From: Zoroaster sp. YZ-2022
Taxonomy: Eukaryota; Echinodermata; Asteroidea; Forcipulatida; Zoroasteridae
Direction: 5' to 3'
Length of the DNA: 64,000 nt
Assembly (NCBI GenBank): GCA_029582265.1
Contig: CM055816.1
Coordinates: 29,184,366 to 29,248,365, forward strand
The notes beneath the pieces were generated by a model. It was not told the DNA's origin. It saw only the letters and a list, made by a program, of their open reading frames with translations, and made no database searches. This document shows positions 6,051 through 59,830 of this stretch, piece after piece. Position 1 is the first letter of the stretch. Each line of letters starts with the position of its first letter. Made by a program: the position numbers and the translations under genes.

Positions 6051-6748
6051 GTTACATGTATCAGGCCGTAAGCGGCTCCGGTTTGCCGTGACGACATTTC
6101 CCGCGGTGCGGAAAACCGCGTTTGTACGGCACTGACGTTGCCGGAATATCAAGATATTTCTTGCCGATCCTTGCGACTGAATTGATCGGAAATTGACAGC
6201 CACCAATGACATGATCATTAATGAACTCGACAATGACCGACTTAACACCTCCCTTTTTATGTATTTCTTTTTAAACAAACTGTCACCTTGTTGGCAAATT
6301 TATGTAATACACAAGAAAGCTTGGTATCGGTGGGTAAATAAATGTTAATGTTGGCGATATGCTGAGGGATGGTCGGTGGCACATCAAAATAATTACACAA
6401 CAAAACCAATTTCAACACCACTTTTTTATTAGGACAACAATTAATGTGGACATCCCCTATAAATAAAATCCTCTTTTTTTTACACATCGTGGTGCACTCC
6501 AGCGCAGGCATAAAGCAGCACTTAAGGTCCCACTAATGCAATTACTGTGAACAATAGGCAAACATTCCATCCTGAGCAGCTAGTTTGATACTTGTTTGTA
6601 GCATATGTGCCGCAGCCGGTCTATTTCAGTCTTTAATAATGAATGTATCACAAACAGTTTGACAAAAGTGTATGGAATCCCAGTACAGGAAACATCGTTA
6701 ACCAATCAGGATACAGCTTACACAAAGCGCAAGGGAGCGTATACATAA

Positions 6749-6799
6749 TGGCTGCGGCCGTGTCGCTGAGAAAACTGACTAGTTTTGACGTGATTTCAG
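6749..6799 (+). CDS. Possible first coding exon inside the 3-kb transposon
   Basis: An ATG opens 17 codons reading MAAAVSLRKLTSFDVIS and runs into CAG|GTAAAT, a good splice donor. A CCAATC box lies about 50 bases upstream in GC-richer DNA. It points toward the nearby right end of the element, so it cannot be the start of a transposase contained in it; a captured host promoter and first exon is one possibility. There is no family match I can name. Confidence 0.25.
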
Positions 6800-7466
6800 G
6801 TAAATAAAACTTCGTATTGCACCGCGTGCGAATCAGTTTTTTGCAGAGAAGTTCACAGAAAGGTGAAAAAAATATTTTTGGTCATCCGGTGAAAAGTAGC
6901 CGGCGGCAAAACCTGCCGCAGGCAGCAATTTGCCGCCGGTGACCGGCTACTTTTGAGAGCCCTGGGTTATGTGTAAGCAAATGGGCCTAGGGAGTTAGGA
7001 CGGATTCAGGTTATGTTTGAGCAAATGGGCCTAGAGAGTTAGGAAGGATTCAGGTTATGTGTAAGCAAATGGGCCTAGGGAGTTAAGAAGGATTCAGGTT
7101 ATGTGTAAGCAAATGGGCCTAGAGAGTTAGGAAGGATTCACGTTATGTGTAAGCAAATGGGCCTAGAGAGTTAGGAAGGATTCAGGTTATGTTTGAGCAA
7201 ATGGGCCTAGGGAGTTAGGAAGGATTCAGGTTTATGTGTAAGCAAATGGGCCTAGGGAGTTAGGAAGGATTCAGGTTATGTGTAAGCAAATGGGCATAGG
7301 GAGTTAGGAAGGATTCAGGTTATGTGTAAGCAAATGGGCCTAGGGAGTTAAGAAGGATTCAGGTTATGTGTAAGCAAATGGGCCTAGAGAGTTAGGAAGG
7401 ATTCAGGTTATGTTTGAGCAAATGGGCCTAGGGAGTTAAGAAGGATTCAGGTTATGTGTAAGCAAA

Positions 7467-8964: not shown

Positions 8965-9453
8965 CCAGTTCGCGTCGGGAATAAAAAAGTTTTTCTGGGC
9001 CCCTGTGGCGGGTTTCTTTTTCCCACACACACGTTAATGGAAGCTTCTACAGCGGGTGGCCGGCACTTCCGAGCATATCACCGTCATTGGCGGATCCAGG
9101 GGGGGGGGGTGGGGGGGCGGGGGGCTAAGGGGGCTGTAGCCCCTCCTAAAATCGTAAAATAAAAAATATAATAGAGAGAGGGGGTGGGGAGGGGAGAACG
9201 CACTCCCATTCCTACAGTGTGCAGCATAAACATAAGGAGGTGACCTACTTAGTACTGTACTGAAAAAATTTTTTTTTTGATTCTCAGCCCCCCCCCCCTA
9301 AAAAATGTTCTGGATCCGCCCATGACCGTACACGCGTGGCTCAACCGAGCATGCATACAAATATTCCGGAGTTTCCTGTGGCGTGTTTAGACGCTCTCCG
9401 ATCCATGGTGCAAAAACAAATTGCGTGTATACACGGCCTCCGACGCGAACTGG
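8965..9453. mobile_element. TTAA MITE (CCAGTTCGC family), host of a nested MITE
   Basis: Starts CCAGTTCGCGTCGGGAATAA and ends CCGACGCGAACTGG, perfect 14-bp inverted ends, with TTAA at 8961-8964 and 9454-9457. Three other copies (12809, 21481, 47007) are about 255 bp; this one is 489 bp because of the insert at 9085-9324. A GTGTATACAC palindrome sits near the right end in all copies. Confidence 0.9.
9085..9324. mobile_element. MITE with GGCGGATCCAG ends and 5-bp duplication ACCGT
   Basis: Ends CATTGGCGGATCCAGG and CTGGATCCGCCCATG are inverted repeats. ACCGT is at 9080-9084 and 9325-9329. The sister MITE at 47007-47261 is uninterrupted at the corresponding point (GTCACTGTACAC), giving an empty site. 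The interior is G/C- and A-rich and non-coding. Confidence 0.85.
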
Positions 9454-9675: not shown

Positions 9676-9939
9676 GCTTGGGTCAGTGGACACTGTTTAT
9701 TGCTCCATGCATGCAGGGTGGGTCCCTGGCCATGTACATGTATCACAGATTAGAAACACGTGTGTGCATACGTGTCATGTGCTTGCTTTACTACTGAAGG
9801 ATTTTGGAGGATTCAGGTTATGTGTAAGCAAATGGGCCTAGGGAGTTAGGAAGGATTCAGGTTATGTGTAAGCAAATGGGCCTATGGAGTTAGGGAGGAT
9901 TCAGGTTATGTGTAAGCAAATGGGCCTAGGGAGTTAGGG
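9676..9939 (+). mobile_element. Truncated 44-bp-array TTAA element
   Basis: The left part is missing; it begins at GGGTCAGTGGACACTG and has three to four 44-bp units, ending GAGTTAGGG followed by TTAA (9940-9943). This copy shows the authentic right end that the 3504-7466 copy lacks. Confidence 0.85.
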
Positions 9940-11265: not shown

Positions 11266-11471
11266 ATCATTATGATCAACAGGACATGGAATCAGAGTGC
11301 TAGTTTTAGATTCATTTAGTGACTGAAAACGATACCCACATGATAAGGTCATATTACCGTTGCTGCTGCATAAATGAGCCAGTAATTTTCAGTCACTGTG
11401 TTCATCTTAAACTGGGACACCGATTCCATGCCCTGTTGAAAGTCTGCTCTGATCGTGACGATATTGTCCCT
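11266..11471. mobile_element. TTAA-type foldback MITE
   Basis: Complete imperfect palindrome: AAAGGGACAATATCATTATG on the left and GATATTGTCCCTTT on the right, arms matching over about 60 bases (GACTGAAAA / TTTTCAGTC). The flanking TTAA is eroded. Non-coding. Confidence 0.8.
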
Positions 11472-17402: not shown

Positions 17403-18725
17403 TGATAAGGCCAAACCAGAAAAATGTTGTGTTTCCGGTAACCCGACTAATCCAATAATATTTGTGAAAGGTAGAGTTGGGATTTATTTTTATTTTGTTA
17501 TTTTTGTCAGGAATTAAAAAAAAAATTTAGAGAATTTTCTGTCATCTTTTTTTTGAGGTATGTAATTTTTTAAAACACAGTATACATATACAAAATAATT
17601 AATAAAACAAAATTGATTTCGTGATCAAATTTGTTTAAAATGTATTTTCAAACATTGCACATGCGTACACATATGGATGCAGTCGTGCTTTCCAAGGTGA
17701 CTGAGGACCTCTCAAAACAAAGAACCAGCGACTGTGGACCTGTTGTTCCCTTTGTTATAAGTCCTTGGTCAGTTTGCAGTGCAAATACGCATGTACATGT
17801 TTTTACATGTGCATGCATAAAATCCCTATAAAAAATTAAACAAATAAAAATAATAATAATAAAATAAAAAATTAAAAAATCCCTACCAACCAACCCATCA
17901 TGTTTGTGGACATGTTACCAGAAACACAATATTTATTTTGTTTGGCCTAATTAAGTATATAAGTCTCTCTATACAAGAAATCCCCTTACACCCGTCTTGT
18001 TTAAAGCCCCTTCTCTGTAGCAGTACAACTTTACATGATATGAAAGAAAGTGAGAGAGAGAGAGCGCTCCTCAAAGCTATCCATTGTAAGAGAGATTCCC
18101 CTATTGTCACATCCTGGTTGGCCCACAACAGATAACACATGATTGGAAAGAGGTGACCAGTTCTGAGGGCTAGGGTCGCTTGGACAGGACGCCTAACGGA
18201 AGCATTAAATCCCTGGAATTGAGTTTGAATAAGTGTTGTCTTGTTGTGTGCGGTTGGCAGCAATGGGGATACGGCGACACACTGTTCAGTACATGGTTGT
18301 AAATACATCAGATAGCTTGGTTCCTCGATGTGTAGTATCCGTCGGTAGAGAGAGAGCATGATATTTAGGAACTTTTTAAGTGTGGATATAAATTGATAAC
18401 ACAGCTGTTGTTTCCTGTGTGAGCTCTCATTGGACGCTGAAGAAGACATTGTTAGACTTATCAGAGAGTGTCGTACACCTGTTTTAATACCAGGAACATA
18501 AGTTTAGTGGACACATCATTTAACTTAGTACTTAACAGGATATTGAAAGTGGACATCGTTGTGAGTTTTGTATAATGTGAAAGCTGTCATTGGAACAATG
18601 CAGTGCTGTGAACTTTTTGGGCAGAATTCTCTTAATAACTTATGAGACACCAGGACAGCTTTTCAGTTCTACTAGTGTAAGTAGAGAAGTTTTTTTCCAC
18701 TGGTTCGTTTCATCTTTCCGCTCTC
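17403..18725. other. No recognised feature; one 183-codon ORF on the minus strand
   Basis: The minus-strand ORF 17898-18449 is the longest not explained by a repeat. Its composition is unremarkable (a Leu/Ser-rich middle, no signal peptide at the start, no motif that I recognise), and the plus-strand AG-rich run near 18048 creates part of it. I see no splice or promoter support and treat it as doubtful. Confidence 0.25.
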
Positions 18726-22382: not shown

Positions 22383-23317
22383 CCCTGACTCCCTCAGCCC
22401 ATTTGCTTACACATAACCTGAATCCTTCCTAACTCCCTAGGCCCATTTGCTTACACATAACCTGAATCCTTCCTAACTCCCTAGGCCCATTTGCTTACAC
22501 ATAACCTGAATCCTTCCTACCTCCCTAAGCCCATTTGCTTACACATAACCTGAATCCTTCCTAACTCCCTAGGCCCATTTGCTTACACATAACCTGAATC
22601 CTTCCTAACTCCCTAGGCCCATTTGCTTACACATAACCTGAATCCTTCCTAACTCCCTAGGCCCATTTGCTTAAACATAACCTGAATCCTCCCTAACTCC
22701 CTAGGCCCATTTGCTTACACATAACCTAAATCCTTCCTACCTCCCTAGGCCCATTTGCTTACACATAACCTGAATCCTTCCTAACTCCCTAGGCCCATTT
22801 GCTTACACATAACCTGAATCCTTCCTAACTCCCTGGGCCCATTTGCTTACACATAACCTGAATCCTTCCTAACTCCTTAGGCCCATTTGCTTACACATAA
22901 CCTGAATCCTGCCTAACTCCCTAGGCCCATTTGCTTACACATAACCTGAATCCTTCCTAACTCCCTAGGCCCATTTGCTTACACATAACCTGAATCCTCC
23001 AAAATCCTTCAGTAGTAAAGCAAGCACATGACATGTATGCACACGTGTTTCTAATCTGTGATACATGTACATGGCCAGGGACCCTCCCTGCATGCATGGA
23101 GCAATAAACAGTGTCCACTGACCTAAGCACTGACCTTGCAATCACTACAACAAACATGGATGTACATGTACATGTACAATGGAAAGGCAAGTATGCCTAA
23201 TAACCTCAATCCTCCAAAATCCTTCACTTTAGCAAAGAGCATGTAGCATGTAACCTCAATCCTTCAAAATCCTTCACTTTAGCAAAGAGGATTTTGGAGG
23301 ATATGGGAAGGTTAGGG
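22383..23317 (-). mobile_element. TTAA element with 44-bp array (inverted copy)
   Basis: Flanked by TTAA at 22379-22382 and 23318-23321. On the plus strand it starts CCCTGACTCCCTCAGCCC, runs through about 13 units of AATCCTTCCTAACTCCCTAG+GCCCATTTGCTTACACATAACCTG, then the unique segment (GGCCAGGGACCCTCCCTGC), and ends GGGAAGGTTAGGG. 935 bp, complete. Confidence 0.95.
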
Positions 23318-24164: not shown

Positions 24165-26385
24165 GTGACCTGCTCCCACAAAATGAGCGTAAAGTCGCAC
24201 ATTGCCATTTCACAGTGCAGCGGGCCAAAGTCAAAATTTTAATGGGTGGTCAATTTTTTGTTTTGGGGTTATTTCGCATCTGTATATATCCCTTTAGCAA
24301 TTCTTAAATTTTTAGTCGGATCTGAAAATAAAAAAGTGTGTTTTTAAGTCGATTTTGTTGATGACTTTTGTTGTGATGTATCAGAAATCCAAAGACAAAG
24401 ACGTAAACAAAGACGAAATTCTTCCCGATGTTCACCCTGTTCTAAAAAACCGCCCTATGTATGTTTGGTATCGTCCGAAAGCTGAAGACGTGGCCTGTTT
24501 ATTTTTAGCAACATGACCTCTGACCGTTCATTCAATAAAGAGTTACAATAAGAATACTAAGGTTGTCATCGACGTAAACAAGGAGCCTTGTTGCTATGCC
24601 TTGCCGTTTTGAGTGCTGTGATTCGCTTAAACCTACCTCGTGTTCACGTGCGCATGCGCCCGTGCAGCGATGTGATTTGTTGACTCGGCCGCCATGGCAC
24701 AGTGTGAAACTGTATGGTTACAGTACACGTTTTACAAAACATGTGCGGTTTTCTTGTCGCTTTTTAATACAACAATAACAGAAAATGGCCGATAAGAACA
24801 GAATAACGAAAGTGCCCTTAATGATGCTGTTATTCTTGGGCTCAATGCTGCTGACAATGATGCTTGGGGAGCTTTTTACAGAGTTTTCGCGGGACGACAC
24901 TTTGTCGGACTCCGAAGACGAGCCCGAAACTTCCGACTCGGATGCCGATGATAGCGCCCGATACGGACGGGGAAGGCAGCCATGAAAGCGTCGACAATGA
25001 AATTGACAGTGACAACGAGCCTGTCGTTAACGAAAATCCTGCTCGGGACATCGTTGATGCCGGTTGGAATGGATGATTGGGTTTCGCCAAAGCGTAGAGC
25101 GTTGAAGGTTCAAATTAACAAACCCTTAGCTTTATACACAACATTGTAACTTGTTTTGTTTTTAACACTTCAGTTATGTTAATTCAGAGTGGTTTCATTC
25201 AAGGTTTTTGTACATTGATAAAGGTCGTCAATATTCAGCATTACGATCTGACTGCTGCTTCAACTTTTCTTTAAATTTAAACAATGTAATTTTTAAGTGA
25301 AAGGAATAAAGGAAAACAACATTACATTTGTATAAGCATCGTTCCTATTTGCTGAAATGAATACATAGCATAAAATACAATAAAATGTAAGTTTATGGAC
25401 TGTCGTGAAGGTAACAGATACTGCCCCTTTAAGTATGTATTAATTATTTTTTAATTAAAAGTGTGTTTTCATAGTACTTACTACTTTTAGCAAGACAAAT
25501 AAGGACATAGAGTTACATTAATTCATGTATGTAGAAGGTTAGCTATGATTAACATGTTTGTTTATTTCTATAACTGCCCTTTAACCTTAACCATGCTCTG
25601 AGAAAACTTAAACATATTCAACAAGTTGTGTATGTTTGTTTGAGCTATCATGTTCATTTGCTTTTTATTTAAAAAAAAAATCAAACTTGTTAATACAGTG
25701 CGTGTTCTAATTGCAAAGGAGAGAATGCAACCATGGACAGCTAACTGCTCAACTGAACTGCCACAATTGAGAAAAATTACAATACATTTTCAGTGAAACG
25801 ACTGCTCCTTTAAAATGTATAATTACGTTTCTTCTACATTATCAATGCTTGATTAATACATGTAATGATATGATTCACTATTCGATGTAAAAAGCTTTGG
25901 ATTCTCTGTCAGTTTACATTATTTCAAAGTATTCAAAACTTCTGCATTTCAATATTTTATGGTCCAGAATAGTGATAAAAATACTGTAATTAAATATGCA
26001 AATGAGGTCTTAATATCCATTGAAGTTATTATTTTGTTTACGTATTTCATTACTAATGTCATTTTTTGTATTTCCTGAAAATTTGAAGTGAAAATATTGA
26101 TCACAACATGGTCGTTGTTAAGGAAACAAAACCTACCTTTTGTATGTGTTGCATTATTTGGTGTTGTTTTCTTGTACACAAGTTTAAAGGCTATTATCTC
26201 CAAAACTATTTTGTATAATTTGTGTAGACTCCATTGCCTTTCTAAGGTTGTAACTTTCTTTTTGAGTGCGATACCCCCAAGTGTTATATACCATTGGAAA
26301 GCTCTTGGTCTACAGATTTCAGAAATACAAAAATCTAAACTTTGAGAATTTCCGACTTTATGCTCATTTTGTGGGAGCAGGTCAC
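24165..26385. mobile_element. 2.2-kb DNA transposon with 33-bp inverted ends
   Basis: Left end GTGACCTGCTCCCACAAAAT+GAGCGTAAAGTCG is matched on the reverse strand at the right end with one mismatch. ATTT flanks both ends (24161-24164, 26386-26389), a likely 4-bp duplication. The interior is mostly AT-rich non-coding DNA plus an acidic broken ORF at 24785-25075. Two internal spots (25425, 25800) carry GC(C/T)CCTTTAA, resembling right ends of TTAA MITEs. Superfamily not determined. Confidence 0.8.
24785..25075 (+). pseudogene. Frame-broken acidic ORF of the 2.2-kb transposon
   Basis: The ORF at 24785 (66 codons) becomes strongly acidic (DDTLSDSEDEPETSDSDADD) and the acidic stretch continues in another frame (APDTDGEGSHESVDNEIDSD, then ARDIVDAGWN) to a stop at about 25074. 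Continuity of composition across the frame change suggests one former N-terminal region. Acidic N-termini occur in several transposase families, including piggyBac-like ones; no catalytic core is present, so the family is not assigned. Confidence 0.4.
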
Positions 26386-38973: not shown

Positions 38974-40069
38974 CAGAGATGCCAACATACACGATTTGGG
39001 CGTAGCAAATACGATTTTGAGCCGTGAATACGACTCTACGATAATACTTCATTGAAATACGCTAAACAAGCCGCCCCAGTATAACTGTATATAGTTACAA
39101 TACAAGCAAACAATGAATGAACTATTAAGTGGAAATAAAAATGATGAAAAATAATTTTAAAAATTAAAAAACAAAACAACCTTTTAAATATAAACCGCAG
39201 TGGTGGTAAAAAGCATCGTTTTTATGATGGATACCGGCGCATTACAAATGTTCATTATTATTATTATTATTAGAATTCACATGATTATGTACGTATCACA
39301 CACAAGCGCGAGCGCGCTGGATTCGACTGCCTACCTACCACATGTACCCACCTGCGCCTGTACTGTACATCTGTACATTATTTGCAAGATCGTACCCATT
39401 GATCTCTATTACATAATGGGGAATAATGAGCATACCCGTGGGGAAATGAGGTTGTCTGTGAGGTAGCTTGTGTGTACACGTACGTGTACATATATGCGCG
39501 CATAATTGTGCTCGCGCACATGCATTACCTTTTAATTTCTCGAAGCTTCTTTGCAAGTGCGACTTCAGTGCTAGGCATGCAGGCACTGCTTACTGCGGAA
39601 TTCTGCGCTTACGGCGCATAGAATTACATGCTTTTTATGGTGCCGTAAGTGCAGAATTCTGTGGTAAGCAGCGCCATGAAATTGGGCCCAGGTGAGCTGA
39701 GCTAGGGCTAGGCCTAGCTAAGGCTATCAATTTGTTATTTGCCTTCGAGACCCCAAGAAAGAGAACAGTTAGTATTATAATCAAAATTTCTAACGTGATT
39801 GATGCATGGATTACTAATTTGGAAGATCATTATTGTGAGCTTTTTAAGATAAGATACATCTAGCATTGTTATAATTTCATAATTTTTTCATTGAGTATTT
39901 TCCTCCAATTTACTCTGCCCCCGGTCCCACTACCGCCAGCGGGGTTCACAACGAGTGCGGCGCTGACATTGCCCAAAATCCGGACATGCATTTTTTAGCG
40001 TTAGATTTTTGCGATTGTTTTTTTTCAATAGATGCTACTCTTTTTTGGAATTCAATGTTGGCATCTCTG
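38974..40069. mobile_element. 1.1-kb DNA element, CAGAGATGCCAACAT ends, 6-bp duplication AACATG
   Basis: Ends CAGAGATGCCAACATACACG and CAATGTTGGCATCTCTG are inverted repeats. AACATG lies at 38968-38973 and 40070-40075, and the paralogous uninterrupted site at 38671-38680 proves the 6-bp duplication. A 223-bp relative is at 48187. The interior holds (TTA)n, an A-rich tract and a palindrome at about 39585-39665 (GCAGAATTCTG). Confidence 0.9.
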
Positions 40070-43288: not shown

Positions 43289-43699
43289 TGAATCGGAGTG
43301 CTAGTTTTAGATTAACTCAGTGACTAAAAATAATACCCCACATGATAAGGTCATATTATCATTGCTGCTGCATAAATGAGCCAGTAATTTTCAGTCACTG
43401 TGTTCATCTTAAACTAGGACACCGATTCCATGCCCTGTTGAAAGTCTGCTCTGATCGTGACGATACTGTCTCATAGCTGCCAACTATTACAAAATTTTCG
43501 TAATTATTACAATTTTTTTTTCTTTCAGGAATTATGAAAGTAGTATAAATTGATTTACGTACATATATGTAGTATGTTTTTGTGTGATTTATTTGGTCAA
43601 GATGACCATCATTTTAGTTTTCACACAAATTGTTATGTCTCGGTCGGTTTCATTACAAATTGGAATTTTGAAATGTTGGCAGCTGTGCTGTCTCTTGAA
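43289..43699. mobile_element. TTAA-type foldback MITE split by a MITE
   Basis: Contains ATCGGAGTGCTAGTTTTAGA and the complementary arm to GTGACGATACTGTCT; interrupted at 43472-43687; resumes CTGTCTCTTGAA. The left end is truncated. Confidence 0.8.
43472..43687. mobile_element. 216-bp MITE, CATAGCTGCCAAC ends, 6-bp duplication CTGTCT
   Basis: Ends CATAGCTGCCAACTATTAC and GAAATGTTGGCAGCTGTG; CTGTCT at 43466-43471 and 43688-43693. Other foldback copies read GATACTGTCC(C/G)TTT uninterrupted. The ends are close to those of the CAGAGATGCCAAC family. Confidence 0.85.
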
Positions 43700-44037
43700 G
43701 TCAAATTCAGTAAGGGAAAATTGTTTTACTGGTTTTACAAATTATGAAAGCAGCCGAGACAAAGCTTTCAAGGGATGTTTGATACCGTCATCAACTAACT
43801 TCACACCAAGTAAGGTTTGTGTCAAACTGTGAGCTGTGTACTTATTTCGAGATAATCGATATATACGTGTAGTGTTTTGTGGCTTAGAAAGACCCAGTAC
43901 ACATTCAGTATAATATCCGTGTGTACGTGTATGTATGTATTCATCTTGAAGTGAAGATACAACATTGGTACATGTAGGAGCCTTCTCCATGAATTAGCTG
44001 TATTTGTTGATTTGTATACGTGCATTCCAAATATTCT

Positions 44038-44374
44038 AATAATAATAATAATGTGGACTTATATAGTGCACGTATCCACCAAACTGGTGCTCAAGGCGCA
44101 TTATATTATTACCCCTGCTGATCAGGCTCATAAATCATTCCTGAAACCATCTCAGCTCCCTGGGGAGTATACAGCTCAATTGCTGCCATTACAGCGCATA
44201 CAGGGCTAATCAAACACAATAACCAACCCCTGGGTGGAGAGAAGCAATTATGGTAAAGTGTCTTGCTCAAGGACACAAGCACCATGGTCGCGGTTGGGAT
44301 TCGAACCCACATTCTGACGACTCGGCCATCAGAACACAAATCCGATTCACCAAACCGCTCGACCATGGCACTCT
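44038..44374 (-). mobile_element. tRNA-headed SINE, minus strand
   Basis: (AAT)n tail, then GTGCACGTATCCACCAAACT, the body with a deletion removing the CCTCACAGGTACCC segment, and the head with GGATTCGAACCC (B box on the reverse strand) and CTCGACCATGGCACTC (A box). Confidence 0.85.
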
Positions 44375-44559
44375 AGGCAGTTCCCAAACTCCCACACCAT
44401 TTTATTATTTTTTTTTAAATCTTATTTAAATACTTACCAAATGGTGGCTATAATTCGCCGCCAAGGCATCCATCAAATGATTTTAATTTGTTCATCTTAC
44501 ACTTTCCATAAAGTATATGCACATTATTTTGGGCCTTAAAACCCTAAACCCCGAATGGT

Positions 44560-45065
44560 TTTGGCTAAGAACCTTCCTGAATCCGCCAAAATCAAACATC
44601 ATGCAGTAGTAACACTACCACCCAACTGTTGGACTTACATGTAGCTGGAATTGGGACACCCGGCCCCCATGTAAAGTATCCCCTTCTGGGCTATACAGTA
44701 CCGAGTCCATCAAAATACAACACCATGCAGTAACACTACCACCCAACTGTTGGACTTACATGTAGATGGAATTGGGACACCCAGCCCCATGTAAAGTATC
44801 CCTGTCTGGGCTATACAGTACTGAGTCCATCAAAATACAACACCATGCAGTAACACTACCACCCAACTGTTGGACTTAGCTGGAATTGGGACACCCAGCC
44901 CCATGTAAAGTATCCCTGTCTGGGCTATACAGTACCGAGTCCATCAAAATACAACACCATGCAGTAACACTACCACCCAACTGTTGGACTTAGATGGAAT
45001 TGGGACACCCGGCCCCATGTAAAGTATCCCTGTCTGGGCTATACAGTACTGAGTCCATCAAAATA
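44560..45065. repeat. Tandem repeat, about 117-bp unit, 4-5 copies
   Basis: Units contain GAGTCCATCAAAATACAACA, CCATGCAGTAACACTACCAC and CCCAACTGTTGGACTTA, starting near 44701, 44820, 44935 and 45051; a diverged unit begins at 44580. Confidence 0.95.
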
Positions 45066-45975
45066 CAACAGCACCAGCCATTGGCCGTTTGATGGGTTTG
45101 GGGTTGTTATGGTTTTTTAAGGACGTATACACTTGTGGTAAAATGTCTGTAAATGTTTATTTCTAACTTCTAAGAATCAAGATATTTGTATAAAAAACCA
45201 GACTGTGACAGTTTCAGCTTAAAATCATTGTTCACTAACAAGGAATTTGTGAAAATGCAAATTAAGATTTCTGTCTTCGGATGTCAGAAAATTCATTTTA
45301 GAAATGATTTATGTAATTTTACTAGAATGATAGCACTTGATGAGAAAGAAATATTTCATCTATCTAGGATGTTTGGTACATGATTATCAACTTTATACCA
45401 AGTACACTTTATTTAAAAACTGATCATTTATCACGATAGTTTGTCAAGATATCTAATACTATATCCGCTCAGTGCACATCATAGCCCTCTAGCGGTGAAT
45501 TTACACCCAGTATCTTGATGATAGCCACTTTTGCGTCATGTGAGCGTTGTGCGTACACTTTATGTGCGTATGTTATGGAACTAAGTGCGCGTATGTACTT
45601 CTGCCAGCCAATGATCGCTGGAGATATTCTGCACGTACGCACTTCAACTGCAAAATACGCCAAACGCGACGCACTATCGCTGCCCTTTTGCCCACAGTGA
45701 TCTAACAACATGTGCCTTCAACAGCTCATGCACGGTGTGAATAATAAGTGTAGTGTAAAAGTGGGAGTAAGTCATTCAAAAAATATTTATACAAATATTT
45801 GGTTCAATGTTCAACTCTATTCCCACTGCCTTCACGTTCAATCCATCCCCAACTGATGTCTGACCTTTCCATGACCCTAATCAGAAACTATTTGTTCTGT
45901 CCTTATCCCAGGACATGAGAATCGATAAAACACTCCCCAAAAAACAAACACTACCACCTCTTAATTCCCCCCCTC
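45066..45975. other. No gene recognised; one dispersed-motif copy
   Basis: The dispersed motif appears as GGATGTTTGGTACATGATTA-TCAACTTTATACCAAG at about 45367-45402. A GTGCGTA-rich patch follows at 45550-45650. Confidence 0.35.
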
Positions 45976-46266
45976 TTGCAGTCTCCGGCCGACCCCCGAC
46001 GCAAATTCAATTACGGTCGATTCCCTGGCTTAATTTTTTTTTTTTTTTTTCATTTCTGTTCATACCTGGGCCCCTACTGCCCCTGCCAAGTCGGCAAACC
46101 CTCTACAGAGGAACAGTTACAGTTTACATGTCAGATGGAATCAGCCCAGGAATGCATCATAGGATGCTGTTGCCGCGGCGACGCATGCAGGGGAGATGTT
46201 TTGGGGCTGGCGGGCTGCTGGGCTTGCCATCTTAACAGCAGCTGGGGCATGAAAATAACACATTAA
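45976..46266 (+). CDS. Small Cys-rich ORF or exon, unknown
   Basis: A 96-codon ORF whose second half is cysteine-rich: YCPCQVGKPSTEEQLQFTCQ, then ECIIGCCCRGDACRG and GCWACHLN, with about ten Cys in 60 residues. A polypyrimidine tract (46027-46050) precedes this part, so it could be the 3' terminal exon of a spliced gene, with the N-terminal half of the ORF being intron. GC content is higher than nearby. No repeat explains it. I cannot assign a family, and a chance ORF is possible. Confidence 0.3.
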   Translation: MQSPADPRRKFNYGRFPGLIFFFFFHFCSYLGPYCPCQVGKPSTEEQLQFTCQMESAQECIIGCCCRGDACRGDVLGLAGCWACHLNSSWGMKITH

Positions 46267-46499
46267 GGAGAATTTGTGGATCGCATTATTCTTCTGTCCA
46301 GTCCTCTATAAAAATATCTTCTCTGATTGAGTCCGCTGGAGAACTGGATACTTAAGAAATCTGAATGTTGTCGCATGGCAGCAGCTGCAAGTTTATCAAA
46401 ACTTGCTTAAACCTTGAAGCTGGTATTATGTACTAAATGTCTGTAAAATGCATCTATACTATGTAAGAAACAATATACATATTAATGAGTTCTTTTGGG

Positions 46500-46690
46500 T
46501 ACAACATGTAATAATCTCTTCTTGGAAGAAGTGGTCGTCAGGAGACGATGGCTAGAGGTTGTTGAGAACAAACCAACCGGCTCTTATCAGAGCCATCACT
46601 TCTTCCGACATGAGATCATTACATGGTGTACCCGCAAGAACTCAATAACATCTACTGTATCTCCACCATGCAAAGCCTCAAATCCTAAAT
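46500..46690 (+). mobile_element. Diverged retroelement 3' region
   Basis: GAAGTGGTCGTCAGGAGACG is followed by AACAAACCAACCGGCTCTTA, TTACATGGTGTACCCGCAAG and CTCCACCATGCAAAGCCTCA, a diverged relative of the element at 58494 and 37473. Confidence 0.6.
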
Positions 46691-46857
46691 CAGTGTACAG
46701 TTATGTACAGAAACCAACCTACATGTACATGTACGTGTGTAAACGTTTCAGTTTATTTCATTGTGTCGTTAACCGGATAATCGTGAAAATGCATTGGATT
46801 TCTTTTGCAGAAGCAGAATTATTGTCTCATGAAGTCGAAAATTTAGTTGGGAAATTA

Positions 46858-46940
46858 TAATAATAATAATAATAATAACAGGAATTTATAAAGCGCCTTT
46901 GCCAAAGGATTTCAAATTGCCAAAGGATTTCAAATTGCTT
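46858..46940. repeat. (AAT)n with TTATAAAGCGCC tail-like sequence
   Basis: (TAA)n then GGAATTTATAAAGCGCCTTT and a local duplication of GCCAAAGGATTTCAAATT. It resembles an inverted LINE/SINE tail. Confidence 0.6.
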
Positions 46941-47006
46941 GACTAATTTTAATAAACATCTCATCTGACAAAAATATTTCAAATGTATGCACCATTATCA
47001 GCTTAA

Positions 47007-47261
47007 CCAGTTCGCGTCGGGAATAAAAAAGTTTTTCTGGGCCCCTGTGCGGGTTTCTTTTCCCCACACAAACACGTTAATGGAGGCTTCCACAGCACGT
47101 GGCCACGGTCTACCGAGCATGTCACTGTACACTCGGCTCGTTGCCACGTCAACCGAGCATGCATACAAATATTCCGGAGTTTCCTCTGGCGTGTATAGAC
47201 GCTCTCCGATCCGTGGTGCAAAAAAAAATTCCGTGTATACACGGCCTCCGACGCGAACTGG
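47007..47261. mobile_element. TTAA MITE (CCAGTTCGC family), complete
   Basis: Starts CCAGTTCGCGTCGGGAATAA and ends CCGACGCGAACTGG, with TTAA at 47003-47006 and 47262-47265. Closest to the 8965 copy and provides its empty site near 47121-47132. Confidence 0.95.
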
Positions 47262-47349
47262 TTAAAACACCAAATTATTTTCACATACATGTAATATATA
47301 ATTGTGATTTTTTTTTGAAAGATAACTAATAGCTTTAACTTGCTGTAAG

Positions 47350-48170
47350 GTTAATACTGAACAAGAACAGGCGTATCCACACCATTCACCCCCATGGTCT
47401 CAACATACAGGAAGGGAATGACTAATTTCCCCCTTTTTTTCTCATTTTTTCTTTCTCCACAGACATTGTTACATTTATTTTACATTTGTTTCACATTTGC
47501 TTGTTAGTGTATTCGTCGATTTTGTTTTACTCCCCCTGCCTGACTCGTTGCTTTTCACTAATCTCATAATCTCTTCCAACCAAAAACTCCTGGTACCTCT
47601 TCATTTAACTATGTAATCATTTATGTTTTTGTGTGGCCTTTTTGGGAAAGAATGTTGAACACAACTGCCACTTTACTTTTTTGTGGATCAGGCGTGTCCA
47701 CGCTATTCCGCCCCATGGTCTCAACATACAGGAAGGGAATGACTAATTTCCCCTTTTTTTCTCCCTTTTTTTTCTTTCGCCACAGACATTTTTCCATTTG
47801 TTTTTCCATTTGTTTTTCCATTTGTTTCGCTTGTTGGTTTATTTGTCCTGTTCATTGCTTTTCACTAATCTCATAATCTCATAATCTCTTCTTCCAGCCA
47901 AAACTCCTGGTACCTCTATTCCTTCTTTAATCCCTCTTTTGCTCCGGTCCCAGGACCAGTACATGACTATGCGTTTTATATCTTCTTCTTCTTTTGTGTT
48001 CATTTCACACCGAGACTAACTTGTAACTCTCTTACAGTATGTTTATTTATGTACCTTGTTTTTTCCTGTCTCGCTTTGCCTTTGAGAAAGAACCTGCTAG
48101 GTTCGAAACGTAAGGCCAATAACATTTACTTTGCAAGAACAAATCAGTTAGGCTTGGGGCTTATTTTATT
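47350..48170 (+). mobile_element. Retroelement 3' region, second hammerhead-like family
   Basis: CCCATGGTCTCAACATACAG and GGAAGGGAATGACTAATTTC occur twice (47392 and 47713), followed by CACAGACATTTTTCCATTTG, TCACTAATCTCATAATCTC and CAAAACTCCTGGTACCTC. It ends in CCTTTGAGAAAGAACCTGCT, AGGTTCGAAACGTAAGGCC. The inverted counterpart lies at 57070-57930. Confidence 0.65.
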
Positions 48171-48186
48171 GTATATATCCCAAATC

Positions 48187-48409
48187 CAGAGATGCCAACA
48201 TTTACGCTTTATCCGTAATATTTACGATTTATTGAGTCCAATTACGATTGTACGATCCTTGTATCAATTTTTGGCCGGCCGTGAAACCAACGATGTAAAG
48301 AATCACATGTGTTTACGGCACGCGCACCGTAGTTCATCAGCTGTTTACACGACGAAAACCTTTCGTTAGGCGAATTACTCTTTTTCAATTTGGAATGTTG
48401 GCATCTCTG
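48187..48409. mobile_element. 223-bp MITE, CAGAGATGCCAACAT ends, 6-bp duplication CAAATC
   Basis: CAGAGATGCCAACATTTACG and GGAATGTTGGCATCTCTG; CAAATC at 48181-48186 and 48410-48415. A short relative of the 1.1-kb element at 38974, with the same ACGATT-rich left subterminal region. Confidence 0.85.
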
Positions 48410-48415
48410 CAAATC

Positions 48416-49117
48416 CCAGTGAAACTGACTCACCTGAACATGTAGAGTACAGTAATTGTGTTAAGTCAGTGTGCTGGTGGAAATAAGGTTCATAAATAGA
48501 CATATAATTGCTTGAATTGTTTTTTAAAAAAATAGCTGTATTACTTAAGGAGCTCCTTTGTCCATAGCAGGTTTGACGTCTTTGCAGGTGTCTAAGAGGA
48601 AAAAAAATAATATCTGCATGTTACTTTCTTTCAAATGAATCATTTGAAATGAACAAAACTATCTTCTGTCACAAATCCTGCCCACTGGGTGGGCCCTTTC
48701 CTTTTCACCGCTGCTGTCACGCTTCCATATTTGACAATTTCCAATTTGGTTTTGCTAGAAAAACCCAGTGTTGGTAATGCCAAGACCACACAACAAGGGA
48801 GTCTTGTACTTATGTAGTCATCTGCACTGGAAGTAGGCATACAGTGGAGGTCCAAATACGGAACCTTGGGGAACCCCTGCTGTAAAGCTGAACAGCTCCC
48901 TCATGAGATACCTGGCGTGAATTCCACATTAAATCAATAATGCATTTCTGGCCAAATCAAATTTGAGAAAAAGATTAAGGCAGAAAAAAAAAATTCTGTA
49001 CATAATTGAATTTTTTTCTTTTCTGTCAGCGTAACAAATTAAAATGTGAAGTATGTGTGTGCGTATGGTGTGCGTATGTGATTGCACATACTGTAGTATG
49101 AATTGATGTCAATTTAC
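48416..49117. other. No gene recognised
   Basis: ORF of 71 codons (48640-48855, minus) without features; A-run at about 48986. Confidence 0.35.
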
Positions 49118-49121
49118 TTCA

Positions 49122-49691
49122 AGGGGCAGTATCATCATGATCAACAGGGCATGGAATTGGAGTGCTATTTTTGGATTAACTGTGTTCATCTTAAACTAGG
49201 ACACTAACTCCATGCCCTGTTGAAAGTCTGCTTTGATCAGGACGAGTGCCCCTTTCAGGGATGCCAGTTTTCCCGGCTGTTGCCGGAATTCCGGCTTTTT
49301 CATATTTTCCCCAAAGAAATCTGGTGCTTTGTCTTTCGTCCATGGTGGGAAAAAATTTGCCTTTGTGTGTGTGGGTCCATGTGTGTCTGTTGTATGTATC
49401 TGTTATATTGATTGCAAACGTGATCATAAAGATTGTATTTTGCGGCCCTCATTTTCTGAAATTTTTTGACTGATTTTACTCAACTTGGGTACCATAATGG
49501 AGGTTGGAAGAGGTTTGGATCTGGAAAAAAAAATCGATGCTAGTGTAAAGAACAGGTTCATTTGGCGTTGGCTTGAATCAAAAGACAACGAGGGATATTT
49601 TCTTTCCATGCGATGAATGAATGTTCGCTCTTCCTTTGCGGGAAATTTTTCTTCCGGCTCTGGAGCAAAGAGCTACTGGCATCCCAGCCCT
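49122..49691. mobile_element. TTAA-type foldback MITE split by a MITE
   Basis: AGGGGCAGTATCATCATGAT after TTCA, then CAACAGGGCATGGAATTGGA; the palindrome is internally shortened. Interrupted at 49256-49687. The right end CCCT is followed by TTAA (49692-49695). Confidence 0.8.
49256..49687. mobile_element. 432-bp MITE, CAGGGATGCCAGT ends, 6-bp duplication CCCTTT
   Basis: CAGGGATGCCAGTTTTCCC at the left; the reverse of the right end is CTGGGATGCCAGTAGCTC. CCCTTT at 49250-49255 and 49688-49693. The foldback host normally reads GTCCCTTTAA here. Several overlapping ORFs of 61-78 codons inside are unsupported. Confidence 0.85.
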
Positions 49692-52886: not shown

Positions 52887-53822
52887 TTTAAAAATCATTT
52901 ACTATGAGTATTCATGATATTCGCATTTGGATGAAGGAAAATTTTCTAAAACTCAATGATGATAAAACTGAATTTGTGCTATTTGGTTCTCGTCAACAAC
53001 TGTCTAAGATTTCTATTCCAAATATTGTAATTGGTGACTCTCATGTGCAATCTTCTTCTCAAGCAAGGAACCTTGGAGTTATTTTTGATGCAAACATGAC
53101 ACTTAAACCTCATATTTCAAATGTTACTCGCACCGCAGCATTTCACCTTAGGAACATTGGAAAGTTACGCAAATAGCGTAATTATGATGCAACAGAACAA
53201 ATTGCCCATTCCTTCTTAACATCTCGTCTTGATATGGCAAATTCACTGCTTTATGGACTTCCTCAGGATCAACTACAACGACTTCAAAAGATTCAAAACA
53301 CTGCTGCACGTATTGTGACTTTCTCTAAAAAAATCATGTCATATCACCCCCATCCTGAAAGATCTGCATTGGCTGCCAATATCATATCGTATTATTTATA
53401 AAATATTGCTTATCGTTTTCAAATCTTTGAATGATTGTGCACCATTATATATATCTGACTTGTTGAAACGTTATGCCCCCTCTCGCAAGTTACGTTCCAG
53501 TGCAAAATTTCTGCTGGCTGAACAAAAGTCTAAACATTCTTGGGGTGACAGATCTTTTGAAGTTGTGGCTCCACGCCTTTGGAATGATTTGCCTCTGTAC
53601 ATTCGTGAATCACAAACTGTTTACTCCTTCAAGAAAAACTCATTTTATGTGTATTGCCTATAAGGACTACTAACATTCATTTATGCATTTTTGATCTTTT
53701 TGTTTAGTATTATATTGCATTTGCTATTGTATTGTTATGCTATTGTATGATTTCTTGTTTACTGTAAAGCGCCTTGGTGGATATGTGTGCATTATAAATC
53801 TTCTGTATTATTATTATTATTA
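52887..53822 (+). mobile_element. 5'-truncated CR1/L2-like LINE
   Basis: Holds the C-terminal part of the reverse transcriptase ORF, a short UTR (GCATTTGCTATTGTATTGTT), the tail segment GTAAAGCGCCTTGGTGGATA, GTGCATTATAAATCTTCTG and (TTA)n. The 3' UTR matches 18726-18931. Confidence 0.9.
52904..53663 (+). pseudogene. LINE reverse transcriptase, C-terminal part, broken
   Basis: The first piece (52904-53176) reads SIHDIRIWMKENFLKLNDDK then TEFVLFGS, the conserved 'W...N.LKLN..KTE.....S' block after the RT palm in CR1/L2-group LINEs. It continues past an in-frame stop (after GKLRK) with DATEQIAHSFLTSRLDMANS, LLYGLPQDQLQRLQKIQN and AARIVTF. A frameshift near 53325 leads into the last piece (ITPILKDLHWLPISYRIIYK; WGDRSFEVVAPRLWNDLP), ending at TAA 53661-53663. 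The catalytic FADD box lies upstream and is absent. Clear relic; one stop and at least one frameshift. Confidence 0.92.
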
Positions 53823-55345: not shown

Positions 55346-56730
55346 GCATTTCATTTCATTTCATTTATTGATTTCACAGGTAGAAAAACAAATAAACACA
55401 AAATTACATTAAATTAGCAGAAACAGAAACAAAGGTAGCACCCCTGAAGGATTACAAAACAGTAAAACTACATAAATTACTGTGGAGTTGATCTCCTGAT
55501 GCTACCACGTAGGAAGTAAACAAACATTGAATCACACAAAGAACGATAAACAACATGGCTTTAGGCACACTTTGAGATTTAAAAACAATATTAAAATAAA
55601 AATATTAAAAGTTAATACCACACAGTTTGAGTTATGGCATCTCCTAGGCCAGGGACTACTAAATGTTTTCAAAGTGAATTAACCCTAACATTTCCAAATC
55701 CTCCAAAATCCTCTTTGCTAAAGTGAAGGATTTTGGAGGATTCAGGTTATTAGGCACACTTGCCTTTCCATGGTACATGTACATCCATGTTTGTTGTAGC
55801 GATTGCATGGTCAGCGCTTGGTTCAGTGGACACTGTTTATTGCTCCATGCATGTAGGGAGGGTCCCTGGCCATGTACATGTATCACAGATTAGAAACACA
55901 TGTGTGCATACATGTCATGTGCTTGCTTTACTACTGAAGGATTTTGGAGGATTCAGGTTATGTGTAAGCAAATGGGCCGAGGGAGTTAGGAAGGATTCAG
56001 GTTATGTGTAAGCAAATGGGCCTAGGGAGTTAGGAAGGATTCAGGTTATGTGTAAGCAAATGGGCCTAGGGAGTTAGGAAGGATTCAGGTTATGTGTAAG
56101 CAAATGTGCCCAGGGAGTTAGGAAGGATTCAGGTTATTTGTAAGCAAATGGGCCTAGGGAGTTAGGAAGGATTCAGGTTATGTGTAAGCAAATGGGCTTA
56201 GGGAGTTAGGAAGGATTCAGGTTACATGTATGTGTAAGCAAATGGGCTTAGGGAGTTAGGAAGGATTCAGGTTATGTGTAAGCAAATGGGCCTAGGGAGT
56301 TAGGAAGGATTCAGGTTATGTGTAAGCAAATGGGCCTAGGGAGTTAGGAAGGATTCAGGTTATGTGTAAGCAAATGGTCCTAGGGAATTAGGAAGGATTC
56401 AGGTTATGTGTAAGCAAATGGGCCTAGGGAGTTAGGAAGGATTCAGGTTATGTGTAAGCAAATGTGCCTAGGGAGTTAGGAAGGATTCAGGTTATGTGTA
56501 AGCAAATGGGCCTAGGGAGTTAGGAAGGATTCAGGTTATGTGTAAGCAAATGGGCTTAGGGAGTTAGGAAGGATTCAGGTTATGTGTAAGCAAATGGGCC
56601 TAGGGAGTTAGGAAGGATTCAGGTTATGTGTAAGCAAATGGGCCTAGGGAGTTAGGGTTAATAAATAAAGATAAACCTTAAATAACTGTATCTGGAACAT
56701 CTGCTGGTAGCACCTTCGATAACACTGGTC
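55346..56730 (-). mobile_element. LINE 3' end, minus strand, split by a TTAA element
   Basis: Parallel to 35564-36000 (CACAGGTAGAAAAACAAATA; GGCATCTCCTAGGCCAGGGA), cut after AAAGTGAATTAA at 55682 and resuming at 56658 with TTAATAAATAAAGATAAACC and CATCTGCTGGTAGCACC. Confidence 0.9.
55683..56657 (+). mobile_element. TTAA element with 44-bp array, complete, with empty site
   Basis: TTAA at 55679-55682 and 56658-56661. Starts CCCTAACATTTCCAAATCC, continues with the unique segment (GGCACACTTGCCTTTCC; GGGAGGGTCCCTGGCCATG) and about 16 units of the 44-bp repeat, ending CTAGGGAGTTAGGG. The uninterrupted LINE copy reads GAATTAATAAATAAAG at 35891-35905. Non-coding and 975 bp, so mobilised in trans. 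Confidence 0.95.
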
Positions 56731-57139
56731 AACAATTTTTTTTAAAGTTGTCTGCTTCGGAGATAAAATGTGCTATTTATTATGGATTTTGATGTGCTGA
56801 ATTCAAATATGACAATTAAAATTGCTGATTGGCTACTGTTTCCAAGATATTTAAGTTTTTACATTGTACATACTATGTATATGGTGTACATATTGTACAT
56901 ATAGCAGATTTTTAATCATGAATTATCATACGCTATTCCCATACGTGTACACATGTACATGTAGATCTTGAAAACTAGAGCCAATCAACAATTTTAAGCA
57001 TCATTTCCATTATCAGTGACCCATAATTAGTCAAGTTTGACTTCATTTGTTTCGGAAGCATTTTGGCTGCAGACCAGTGTAATCTTTCTCCAAGGCAAAA
57101 TGAATAAGATACACATGTACATACATACGTATACAAAAA

Positions 57140-57345
57140 CCGTAGTGGGTTCGAGCCCCGGTCGTGACACTTGTGTCCTTGAGCAAGGTACTTAACCATA
57201 ATTGCTTCGTCCTTCGGATGGGACGTAAAGCCGTAGGTCCCGTGTGTTGTGTAATGCACGTAAAAGAATGCGCCTTGAGCACCACTTAGTTGGTGGATAC
57301 GTGCGCTATATAAGTCCACACATTATTATTATTATTATTATACAT
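57140..57345 (+). mobile_element. Variant SINE, shortened, plus strand
   Basis: Begins at the B box (GTGGGTTCGAGCCCCGG), has CCTTGAGCAAGGTACTTAAC, then a different middle (CCTTCGGATGGGACGTAAAG, CCGTAGGTCCCGTGTG) and the usual tail GCGCCTTGAGCACCACTTAG ... GTGCGCTATATAAGTCCACA-(TTA)n. A second SINE subfamily sharing head and tail. Confidence 0.85.
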
Positions 57346-57603
57346 GTACCGTATACATGCGTAAACAAGAGTGAGCCACAGTTAGTCAGGTGTGAAATAA
57401 ATACCAGAGAAAAGGGTACAAAAAGCAGCGTCAGGTTCTGGTCCTGGGATCGGACAAAAGAGGGATTACAACACATGAATAGATAGAGATACCAGGAGTT
57501 TTTGGCTGGAAGAAGAGATTATGAGATTAGTGAAAAGCAATGAGTCAGACAGAGGGAGGGGGAGGGTAAAACAAGACAGGCAAATAGGCTGACAGGCAAA
57601 AGA

Positions 57604-57805
57604 AATGGAAAAACAAATGGAAAAACAAATGGAAAAAAACAAATGGAAAAAAACAAATGGAAAAACAAATGGAAAAACAAATGGAAAAACAAATGGGAAA
57701 ACAAATGGAAAAACAAATGGAAAAACAATTGGAAAAACAAATGGAAAAACAAATGGAAAAACAAATGGGAAAACAAATGGGAAAACAAATGGAAAACAAA
57801 TGAAA
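57604..57805. repeat. Minisatellite, 12-bp unit ATGGAAAAACAA
   Basis: About 16 units with AAAAA/AAAA and GGGAAA variants. The 47.8-kb relative has three units in inverse (TTGTTTTTCCAT), so the array expanded in this copy. A 151-codon plus ORF (Met-Glu-Lys/Lys-rich) and 144-codon minus ORF (Phe-rich) across it are by-products. Confidence 0.95.
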
Positions 57806-58163
57806 AAATGTCTGTTGAGAAAGAGAAGAAGAAAAAAAGAGGGAAAATTAGTCATTCCCTTCCTGTATGTTGAGACCATGGGGGTGAATGGTGTGGACAT
57901 GCCTGATCCACATCTTTTCTCTTATACATGTATGAGACTGGACCAATTCTCTGCAGGATACCAAGCGACTCAGTGCCCTGTAAAATCATGTTATGTTGCT
58001 GAAAAGTTGAAGACAGGCATCAAACATCCCTTGAGACCATTTCAGTCATTTTTTTTTTAAAGAACAGTCAAATTAAGTTTGTTTAGTTGATAGAAGTAAC
58101 AGTCTTACCAAGCTCCACAAAGAATCTTTGAAGCAAAAATAAGTTTGTTTTTATGCATATATA

Positions 58164-58436
58164 TACTACTCAAAACAATTTAGGGAACACCGGAGTAATC
58201 TCAGTTAAAGCAAGATCATTTATTTCAGATAAACACAATGTTTCACAGAATTGATGAGAAACAACTGCACATTGAAACAGATGATAAAGGATGCATGTAG
58301 TGATTACACATTTCATGACATGACTACTGAAAGAGAGAGGGGGTTGCAAATGAAAATCCCGGTTCATGGAACATTTCAAACCTACCGGGTATTTGATGTT
58401 AAAAATCCGGTGTTCCCTAAATTGTTTTGAGTAGTA
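58164..58436. mobile_element. Mariner-like MITE (TACTACTCAAAACAATT ends)
   Basis: TACTACTCAAAACAATTTAG at the left, inverse at the right, TA flanks; opposite orientation to 2659-2927 and about 90% alike by eye. Confidence 0.9.
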
Positions 58437-58493
58437 TATATCACCTCTTGGTTAAATGTCTGTAAATGCATCCATACATGTACACACGTCCTG

Positions 58494-58645
58494 ACGACGA
58501 TCAGAGCATACTGATCGAAACATTAAGTTGTAACCAACCGGTTCTTTTCTAAACTACTCAAAAGAGCATTTCTACATGGTGTCACTGCAAACAGTCTTTA
58601 CTTATCCTTTTTTTCACCGTGCAAAGCTGCAAGTCTTAGATCCAT
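58494..58645 (+). mobile_element. Retroelement 3' region with hammerhead-like motif
   Basis: GACGATCAGAGCATACTGAT then CGAAACATTAAGTTGTAACC, TTCTTTTCTAAACTACTC, CATGGTGTCACTGCAAACAG and GCAAAGCTGCAAGTCTTA. The GTCG after GAAAC is mutated compared with other copies. Confidence 0.75.
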
Positions 58646-59269
58646 ACTTTATAAGAATCAAAGGTGTGCATGTACATGTACTGACTTGATGATTTGGAGT
58701 GTAAATAATGTTCTTAGCTAGCTAGATTGTTGTTAGGAAACAAGTACACCTATACTTTTTCTTCTCCAGCCCGTTGTTCAACACCAAAACTTACAAAACT
58801 TTTTAGCAATTTACATCCATAAAGAACAAGATTTTGTTCTTCTTCGGTTCAATGGTCAGCTGAAGTGATTGACTGGGTTCAAACAGAGTGATAAACAAAG
58901 CTTTATCCTGTTTCCTCCCAAACATGTAACTGAAGCGGCCGTTTCCTGTCCAAAGCACTCCAGACCAGCTTCTACGGTTTCCTGTGTATTTGGTTCTAAC
59001 AGTTCAGGATGCAATTCAATTCCCCTGGAAAATAAACAGCTTCCTGTCTGTCAATTCTTGCCATTGACATTGTCATCATCAGTCAGTGTTATAAAGAAAA
59101 TTGCCAGTTCTGGGAAGGTGTGTTTGTATCCTAAAATAGCTGTATAAACTTCAAAACAAGGAATGATATCTGTTACCCCTGCTCGCTTTCTTTGTCAATC
59201 TCGTTTTTTATGTCCTCTGCAACCCTTTCCTCATGAAAAAAAAAATACAAATCAAATAAAATACAAATA
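58646..59269. other. No gene recognised
   Basis: A 92-codon plus ORF at 58869-59147 has mixed composition and several Cys but no recognisable motif; no repeat match. Confidence 0.3.
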
Positions 59270-59830
59270 TATATATGATAGGTATTTCCTCTTCTTGCTT
59301 TCATTGTCAACTTCATTTTTCCTCCTTTGCTGTCATTTCCCCCTGATCACAAAGTTTACAAAACTTCAACACCAGAAATGAAAAGTATATCCTTTTTCTT
59401 GCTTTCAGTCAATTTAATTTTCTCTCCTTTGCAATCATTTCCCCTGATCACTAAGTTTACACAACTTCAACACCAGAAATGAAAGGTATTTCCTTTTTCT
59501 TGTTTCTGTCTCCTGTCTAATTTTCGCTCCTTTGCTATAATGTAGTTTACAAAACTTCAACACCAGACAAGAAAGGTATTTCCTTTTCCTTGCTTTCTCT
59601 CAATCACAAAGTTCACAAAACTTCAACACCAAAAACGAAAGATATTTTCCTTTTCTTGCTTTCTGTCAATTTCATTTTCCCTCCTTTGCTGTAATTCCCC
59701 CGATCACAAAGTTTACAAACTTAACAAACCGGATATTATTTCTCTGTATCCTTCTCGCTTTCTTTGTCAAACTTTTCACTCTCTCTCTCTCCTTAGATAT
59801 CATTTCCTCAATCAAGTTCAAAACTACGAA
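59270..59830. repeat. Degenerate tandem repeat, about 95-bp unit, 5-6 copies
   Basis: GATCACAAAGTTTACAAAAC followed by TTCAACACCAGAAATGAAA, TATTTCCTTTTTCTTGCTTT and TTTTCCCTCCTTTGCTGT recurs from about 59330 to 59720 with substantial drift. Confidence 0.8.

Follow-up and report, generated by a model that had tools for sequence, protein, structure and literature searches.

Insertions with mainly 6-bp target-site duplications in a sea star genome, very probably non-autonomous hAT transposons

Five insertions in a 64-kb window

A 64,000-nucleotide stretch of the genome of the sea star Zoroaster sp. YZ-2022 (contig CM055816.1, positions 29,184,366 to 29,248,365; hereafter the window) contains five insertions, E1 to E5, bounded by short inverted ends and flanked by 6-bp target-site duplications. 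E1 (3967-6964, minus strand) is a 3-kb non-autonomous element, apparently hAT-derived, with ends CAGGGCTCTCAAA and the duplication GGTTAT. E2 (38974-40069, no strand assigned) is a 1.1-kb element with ends CAGAGATGCCAACAT and the duplication AACATG. The other three have the size of miniature inverted-repeat transposable elements (MITEs): E3 (43472-43687, 216 bp, ends CATAG/CACAGCTGCCAAC, duplication CTGTCT) and E4 (48187-48409, 223 bp, ends CAGAGATGCCAACATT, duplication CAAATC), likewise without an assigned strand, and E5 (49256-49687, plus strand, 432 bp, ends CAGGGATGCCAGT/CTGGGATGCCAGT, duplication CCCTTT). The coordinates and 6-bp duplications proposed in an initial annotation of the window are all exact on re-reading. 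Its description of the whole group as MITEs does not hold: E1, at 3 kb, is a composite that includes a nested element, and E2 measures 1.1 kb. Judged by length (under ~600 bp), lack of coding sequence, high copy number and conserved ends, E3 and E4 are MITEs, E5 is short but retains a coding piece, and E1 is too long.

The two ends of each element agree at 16 (E4), 15 (E2), 14 (E1), 13 (E3) and 12 (E5) of their first 16 bases. Ends of the type CANAGNTGCCAAC are common to E2-E4 and similar to the ends of E5 and of the hAT element BuT2. The core of the end reads TGCCAAC in E3 and TGCCAGT in E5, and the TGCCA motif claimed for four of the five is indeed present in E2-E5. The general formula CA(G/T)(A/G)G describes the ends apart from one end of E3 (CACAG) and one of E5 (CTGGG). 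Counted from the left end, TACGA motifs occur in both E2 and E4 at positions 37, 56/57 and 64/65; the two elements can be aligned at 73% identity over the first 70 bp and 83% over the last 34-36 bp. The shared core in E2-E5 and the TACGA positions in E2 and E4 make a common lineage of those four likely.

Nine pairs emerged when we scanned the window for C..G-type ends that agree at 12 or more of their 16 terminal bases and are flanked by an exact duplication no shorter than 5 bp: E1-E5 with 6 bp, one pair with 8 bp, two with 5 bp and one with 7 bp at 57091-59592, which is weak. The 8-bp pair is N8 (5519-6050, no strand assigned), a 532-bp CAGGG-ended (CAGGGCC..) element nested in E1 with the exact duplication GTTACATG. 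One 5-bp pair lies off-register within N8, and the other is N5 (9085-9324, no strand assigned), a CATNGGCGGATCCAG-ended element with the duplication ACCGT, which provides a contrast case. For N5, a paralogous empty site exists at 47003-47269, where 5 bp is the best reading by a small margin (180 vs 176-178). The 6-bp group is real but selected, N8 and N5 being further CAnnG-ended elements of the window. One hundred dinucleotide shuffles of the window gave 22 matches in total (15 of 5 bp, six of 6 bp and one of 7 bp), with a maximum of two per shuffle; 6-bp cases thus arise at 0.06 per window, vs five observed.

E1 is located inside a 44-bp tandem array, which acts as its own empty site: the array phase is best restored on removing 6 bp (score 105/120, vs 94-100 for 4, 5 and 7-10 bp). 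Arrays of this unit (GGATTCAGGTTATGTGTAAGCAAATGGGCCTAGGGAGTTA..) are found at 3819-3966, 6965-7466, 9806-9939, 22384-22998 and 55948-56656. For E2 the window offers no usable empty site, and for E3, E4, E5 and N8 none that spans the junction was found there. The same interspersed repeat occupies 43301-43471 and 49179-49245 and ends a few bases before E3 and E5, respectively; other copies lie near 11300, 13660, 19951 and 30823. This adjacency may reflect target preference or chance. A candidate end at 18253-18265 had no partner with a duplication within the 6 kb tested. The pair at 2064-2313 (GTACAC) resembles a Tc1/mariner-type end, with an ambiguous TA reading, and was left out of the counts. 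Viral contigs scanned for two of the 16-base ends gave 19 and 1 matches, where we estimate about 20 by chance, and no duplication of at least 5 bp occurred among the listed partner ends. A text search for five end sequences returned no transposon title among the matches listed.

Coding remains in E5 and E1

A Pfam search of 52 open frames of the window (limit E 0.1) returned no transposase domain. The initial statement that no transposase is visible needs correction: E5 contains a transposase peptide and E1 a fossil of hATC, the C-terminal dimerisation domain of hAT transposases.

The E5 peptide (49494-49607, plus strand) corresponds to the N-terminal part of a hAT transposase and recurs across the E5 family. 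It matches, with 68% identity over 38 amino acids (tblastn E 1.3e-8), a 453-amino-acid open frame of a locus on another contig, L184 (G000:C9, at 36891301), of which a near-identical copy exists at C19:15310666-15312024. A genome search with a family copy of the peptide yielded 489 candidates and, among them, 150 scored matches; open frames of 453 amino acids hold two of the latter. In L184 this frame carries a BED finger below threshold (14 bits, cut-off 20.6). An hATC domain over the cut-off (24.5 bits, E 2.4e-5) is present in an overlapping frame of 313 amino acids, and a further frame comprises 110 amino acids. The hATC stretch has a weak match to the Hermes transposase (E 0.01). The sequence ACTGGCATCCCTG at positions 3500-3512 of L184, ~330 bp past the coding frames, is the complement of the left-end 13-mer of E5, and beside its right end E5 is identical to L184 in 45 of 55 columns (82%). 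Since the L184 transposase both matches the E5 peptide and adjoins an E5-type end, E5 is most likely a deletion derivative of the L184 hAT lineage. At this level of identity (68% over 38 amino acids), L184 is a relative and need not be the parent. The E5 peptide drew one candidate and no scored match from the protein database, solved structures had no real match to the first L184 frame (best E 0.41), and an NCBIfam search gave no useful match.

The hATC remnant (PF05699) of E1 lies at 6051-6224 on the minus strand, where it is identified by profile, protein and DNA matches. It is broken, lies in two frames and is split by N8, beyond which the last part occupies 5478-5516 on the same strand (E 0.43 alone). 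When the parts are joined by X at the frameshift and across N8, the resulting reading scores 24.5 bits against the PF05699 cut-off of 21.4, and a protein search with it retrieved 16 proteins with hATC out of 36 candidates (best E 3.4e-8), mostly ZBED1-like where named. On the unmodified window, tblastn with these same proteins reaches E 1.2e-8 in two frames, and an independent hATC frame from the PF05699 genome search matches 6204-6067 at E 3.3e-6. At the DNA level, 6051-6224 is 80% identical to an open-frame hATC exon.

Relatives of E1 were sought among 20 of the 150 listed hATC places in the genome, each read with ~700 bp downstream, and six of the 20 matched E1. The best-read relative (G000:C11:8987138-8991708) has TAGGGCTGTGC ends, the 8-bp duplication GTACAGTC, a BED-finger frame of 401 amino acids (42.8 bits) and an hATC frame (72.4 bits). 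For this copy alone, a 6-bp duplication with CTAGGG ends fits equally well; copies of the same type at C8 (AAACATAT) and C18 (CAATATTG) give the 8-bp reading. E1 aligns with the C11 relative in four collinear blocks (85%, 80%, 80% and 81%), of which the first, at 6229-6633 on the minus strand, corresponds to its 5' part. Between this stretch and the hATC remnant the blocks skip ~2.8 kb of the relative, including the BED-finger frame, and the outer 331 bp and 1040 bp of E1 do not match it. With a collinear interior and unmatched outer parts, E1 looks like a deleted, chimeric element. The hATC remnant alone therefore does not name the transposase that moves E1. Three further loci, L118, L119 and L121 (G000:C7, C22 and C3), contain 3' parts of hAT transposases that are 96-98% alike and have CAGTGGCGTAGCTGGC-type termini; their likeness suggests that a hAT family has been active recently in this genome.

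Duplication lengths in family copies and neighbouring elements

A search of the genome (1.0 Gb, 616 contigs) revealed all five insertions as members of repeat families, with 2,445 candidates for E1, 1,832 for E2, 726 for E3, 506 for E4 and 420 for E5. Forty candidates were scored per family, and the copies fetched, being the best matches to the window copy, form a non-random sample (27 for E3 in addition to the window copy, 20 for E4, 19 for E5, 10 for E1 and nine for E2). Loci with the same flanks were merged by hand into one insertion event. The resulting 72 events exclude the copies of the window itself, among them L021 (E3), as well as L022, which has a flank in common with L021; L093 was also left out. 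Fifty-two events have an exact duplication of 5-8 bp: 42 of 6 bp, six of 7 bp, two of 5 bp and two of 8 bp. The E1 family (10 events) has seven exact cases of 6 bp, two of 5 bp and one with a 5/6 match; the E2 family (nine events) has seven of 6 bp, one of 7 bp and one with none. Ten of the 20 E3 events are exact at 6 bp and one at 8 bp, while nine have no exact duplication, six of these matching at 5/6 positions. The 15 E4 events divide into 11 of 6 bp and four of 7 bp. For E5 the 18 events comprise seven of 6 bp, one of 7 bp, one of 8 bp and nine without an exact 5-8 bp duplication. Weak exact cases are TTTTTT (E5), TGTGTG (E1) and the 8-bp case of E5, which has a poorly defined left end.

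Identity to their own consensus is 98-100% among the 20 E4 copies fetched (95.5% for the window copy), and the mixture of 6- and 7-bp duplications in this family is therefore recent and not a product of decay. Variation between 5 and 8 bp across copies had been named in the initial annotation as an outcome that would count against it, and the copies show this in part, with lengths of 5, 7 and 8 bp beside the mode of 6 bp. The 16-base end CAGAGATGCCAACATT occurs 564 + 575 times genome-wide, vs 0 for the reversed control. At G000:C1:104314104-104317125 two oppositely oriented ends of this type lie 3,022 bp from each other and may mark a longer E2/E4-like element.

We extended the window scan to the 200 kb downstream, where the duplication again had to be exact and no shorter than 5 bp. 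Over these 264 kb, seven pairs have a duplication of 6 bp, two of 5 bp, eight of 8 bp and one of 7 bp; per sequence, 20 shuffles yield 0.75 pairs with 5 bp and 0.05 with 6 bp. The eight 8-bp rows represent five duplication sequences, from duplicated or composite sites. The 6-bp set consists of E1-E5 and two further TGCCAAC-ended elements, so that all six elements returned with TGCCAAC or TGCCAGT ends have 6 bp. Both 5-bp pairs (N5 and one downstream) have CANNGGCGGATCCAG ends. The 8-bp elements have other CAnnG ends, except for one downstream site with CAACGGCGGATCYAG ends and the core of the 5-bp pairs. The duplication length is therefore not simply set by the end core.

Two other repeats of the window lie apart from this group. 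A 2.2-kb element at 24166-26384 has inverted ends TGACCTGCTCCCACAAAATGAGC (23 bp perfect, ~34 bp near-perfect) and the 6-bp duplication CATTTG. TG..CA termini together with a duplication of this length would suit an element similar to GingerRoot/IS3EU; no recognisable transposase appeared in the frames scanned. A remnant of a reverse transcriptase of the long interspersed nuclear element type is present at 52892-53663, with 192 homologous proteins at E 0.001 for 53319-53663.

Probable assignment to hAT and comparison with known elements

Transposons of the hAT superfamily encode a transposase with an hATC dimerisation domain and an RNase-H-like DDE catalytic fold. They have short terminal inverted repeats starting with C/T-A-n-n-G, and their target-site duplications measure 8 bp, or 5, 6 or 7 bp in named groups. 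The insertions of the window show these marks: a transposase with hATC in the E1 fossil and in L184, the coding relative of E5; short CAnnG-type inverted ends with 12-16 of 16 matches (CTGGG at one end of E5); and duplications with a mode of 6 bp (42 of 52 exact ones) accompanied by cases of 5, 7 and 8 bp. Exact ends, duplications and family copies confirm that these are real non-autonomous DNA transposons with 6-bp duplications. Very probably all five are non-autonomous cut-and-paste hAT transposons that usually generate 6-bp duplications, i.e. hAT6 in Repbase usage, a label that here follows from the duplication length and the hAT coding remains and not from a transposase phylogeny. A single superfamily is most likely for all five, given coding evidence for E1 and E5 and end similarity only for E2-E4. 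The group is best read as a known kind and not an unknown lineage, ordinary apart from the looseness of its duplication length. The presumed mechanism is that of other hATs: a transposase acting in trans would bind the CAnnG ends and subterminal repeats, excise the element and join its 3' ends to target strands ~6 bp apart, and gap filling at the target would leave the 6-bp repeats. E2, E3 and E4 were most likely moved by the same lineage as E5 or a close one, because the TGCCA core and the 6-bp habit are common to them.

Several observations weigh against assigning the whole group to 6-bp hATs. No transposase is tied to the ends of E2-E4 or to those of E1. A reading of 650 bp before the L184 frame did not reveal the 5' end of this locus, and its transposase is spread over overlapping frames, for which an intron or frameshift has to be assumed. 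The hATC of E1 in a single frame stays below the cut-off (12.5 bits, E 0.13) and is seen only at a laxer limit. Both BuT2 and the C11 relative of E1 have 8-bp duplications; 20 of the 72 events lack an exact 5-8 bp duplication; and the constancy of 6 bp initially claimed fails within the families themselves, where 6 bp is the mode and not a strict value.

The most serious alternative concerns the number of transposases within hAT. Two or more hAT lineages could be involved, that of L184 serving the TGCCA-type ends of E2-E5 and another the CAGGGCTCTC ends of E1, and we give this about an even chance. The ends of E1 differ, its interior matches a ZBED1-like hAT that BLASTP does not significantly link to L184 (best E 0.15), and its 10 family events include the two exact 5-bp cases beside seven exact and one single-mismatch 6-bp cases. 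The interior may, however, be captured cargo, considering the unmatched sides of 331 bp and 1040 bp. The single transposase lineage suggested initially is thus plausible for E2-E5, with their common core and 6 bp, and unproven for E1; for all five together it is not supported, because E1 has different ends and an interior from another hAT lineage.

Explanations outside hAT fare much worse. IS3EU and GingerRoot elements likewise make 6-bp duplications, according to PMC10045372 and PMC12730594, but their termini are TA..TA (occasionally TG..CA in GingerRoot) and their transposases integrase-like, whereas the ends here are CAnnG and the hATC domain contradicts such an origin for E1 and E5; we regard it as very improbable. 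Dada-type elements, with a similar range of 6-7 bp (PMC3706591), are more improbable still: they are described there without terminal inverted repeats, in contradiction to the inverted ends observed, and they target small-RNA genes, of which no Rfam match at gathering score exists in the window. IS3EU and Dada were both rejected on end structure, as TA..TA termini are missing and inverted ends are present. Chance pairing of inverted repeats with matching flanks has nothing in its favour beyond the finite search space; the shuffle counts speak against it and further family copies with duplications of their own refute it, which leaves it a negligible probability.

Within the hAT assignment, the looseness of duplication length within families and between close relatives is mildly surprising. 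Habits of 5, 6 and 8 bp coexist within 264 kb, the end core GGCGGATCYAG occurs with both 5 and 8 bp, recent MITEs of the E4 family have both 6 and 7 bp, and E1 combines the interior of an 8-bp hAT lineage and other ends with 6-bp, sometimes 5-bp, duplications. A speculative and rather unlikely interpretation is that duplication length in hATs is only loosely fixed and changes readily from one close relative to the next, with hAT5, hAT6 and hAT8 representing states and not clades; such states would change with end sequence or synapse geometry. The 6/7-bp mixture in one family and the contrast of 8 bp with 6 bp between E1 and its relative offer a natural test of how duplication length is controlled. 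A puzzling group is hereby placed in a known superfamily, and the coding relative named for one family makes its mobilisation testable.

Among known systems, hAT5, hAT6 and hAT7 are listed as hAT families with 5-, 6- and 7-bp duplications in PMC12730594, which credits the hAT6 group to Kapitonov and Jurka (2007, Repbase Reports). The elements of Zoroaster resemble the hAT6 group in their hAT transposase remains and 6-bp duplications, but 6 bp is here the mode and not a constant. BuT2, a Tip-group hAT of Drosophila, is comparable in its ends, the forward primer at its end beginning CAGTGCTGCCAAC (vs CAGAGATGCCAAC, CATAGCTGCCAAC and CAGGGATGCCAGT in the window), and in its deletion-derived MITE-like copies; it differs in its 8-bp duplications (PMC3942097). 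ZBED1-like hATs and the C11 element share with E1 an interior of 80-85% identity in collinear blocks, whereas the ends of E1 differ from those of the C11 element and its duplications are mostly 6 bp. Deletion derivatives of the Ds type retain their ends and lose the transposase interior. E1 departs from this pattern, in that its ends do not match the relative of its interior.

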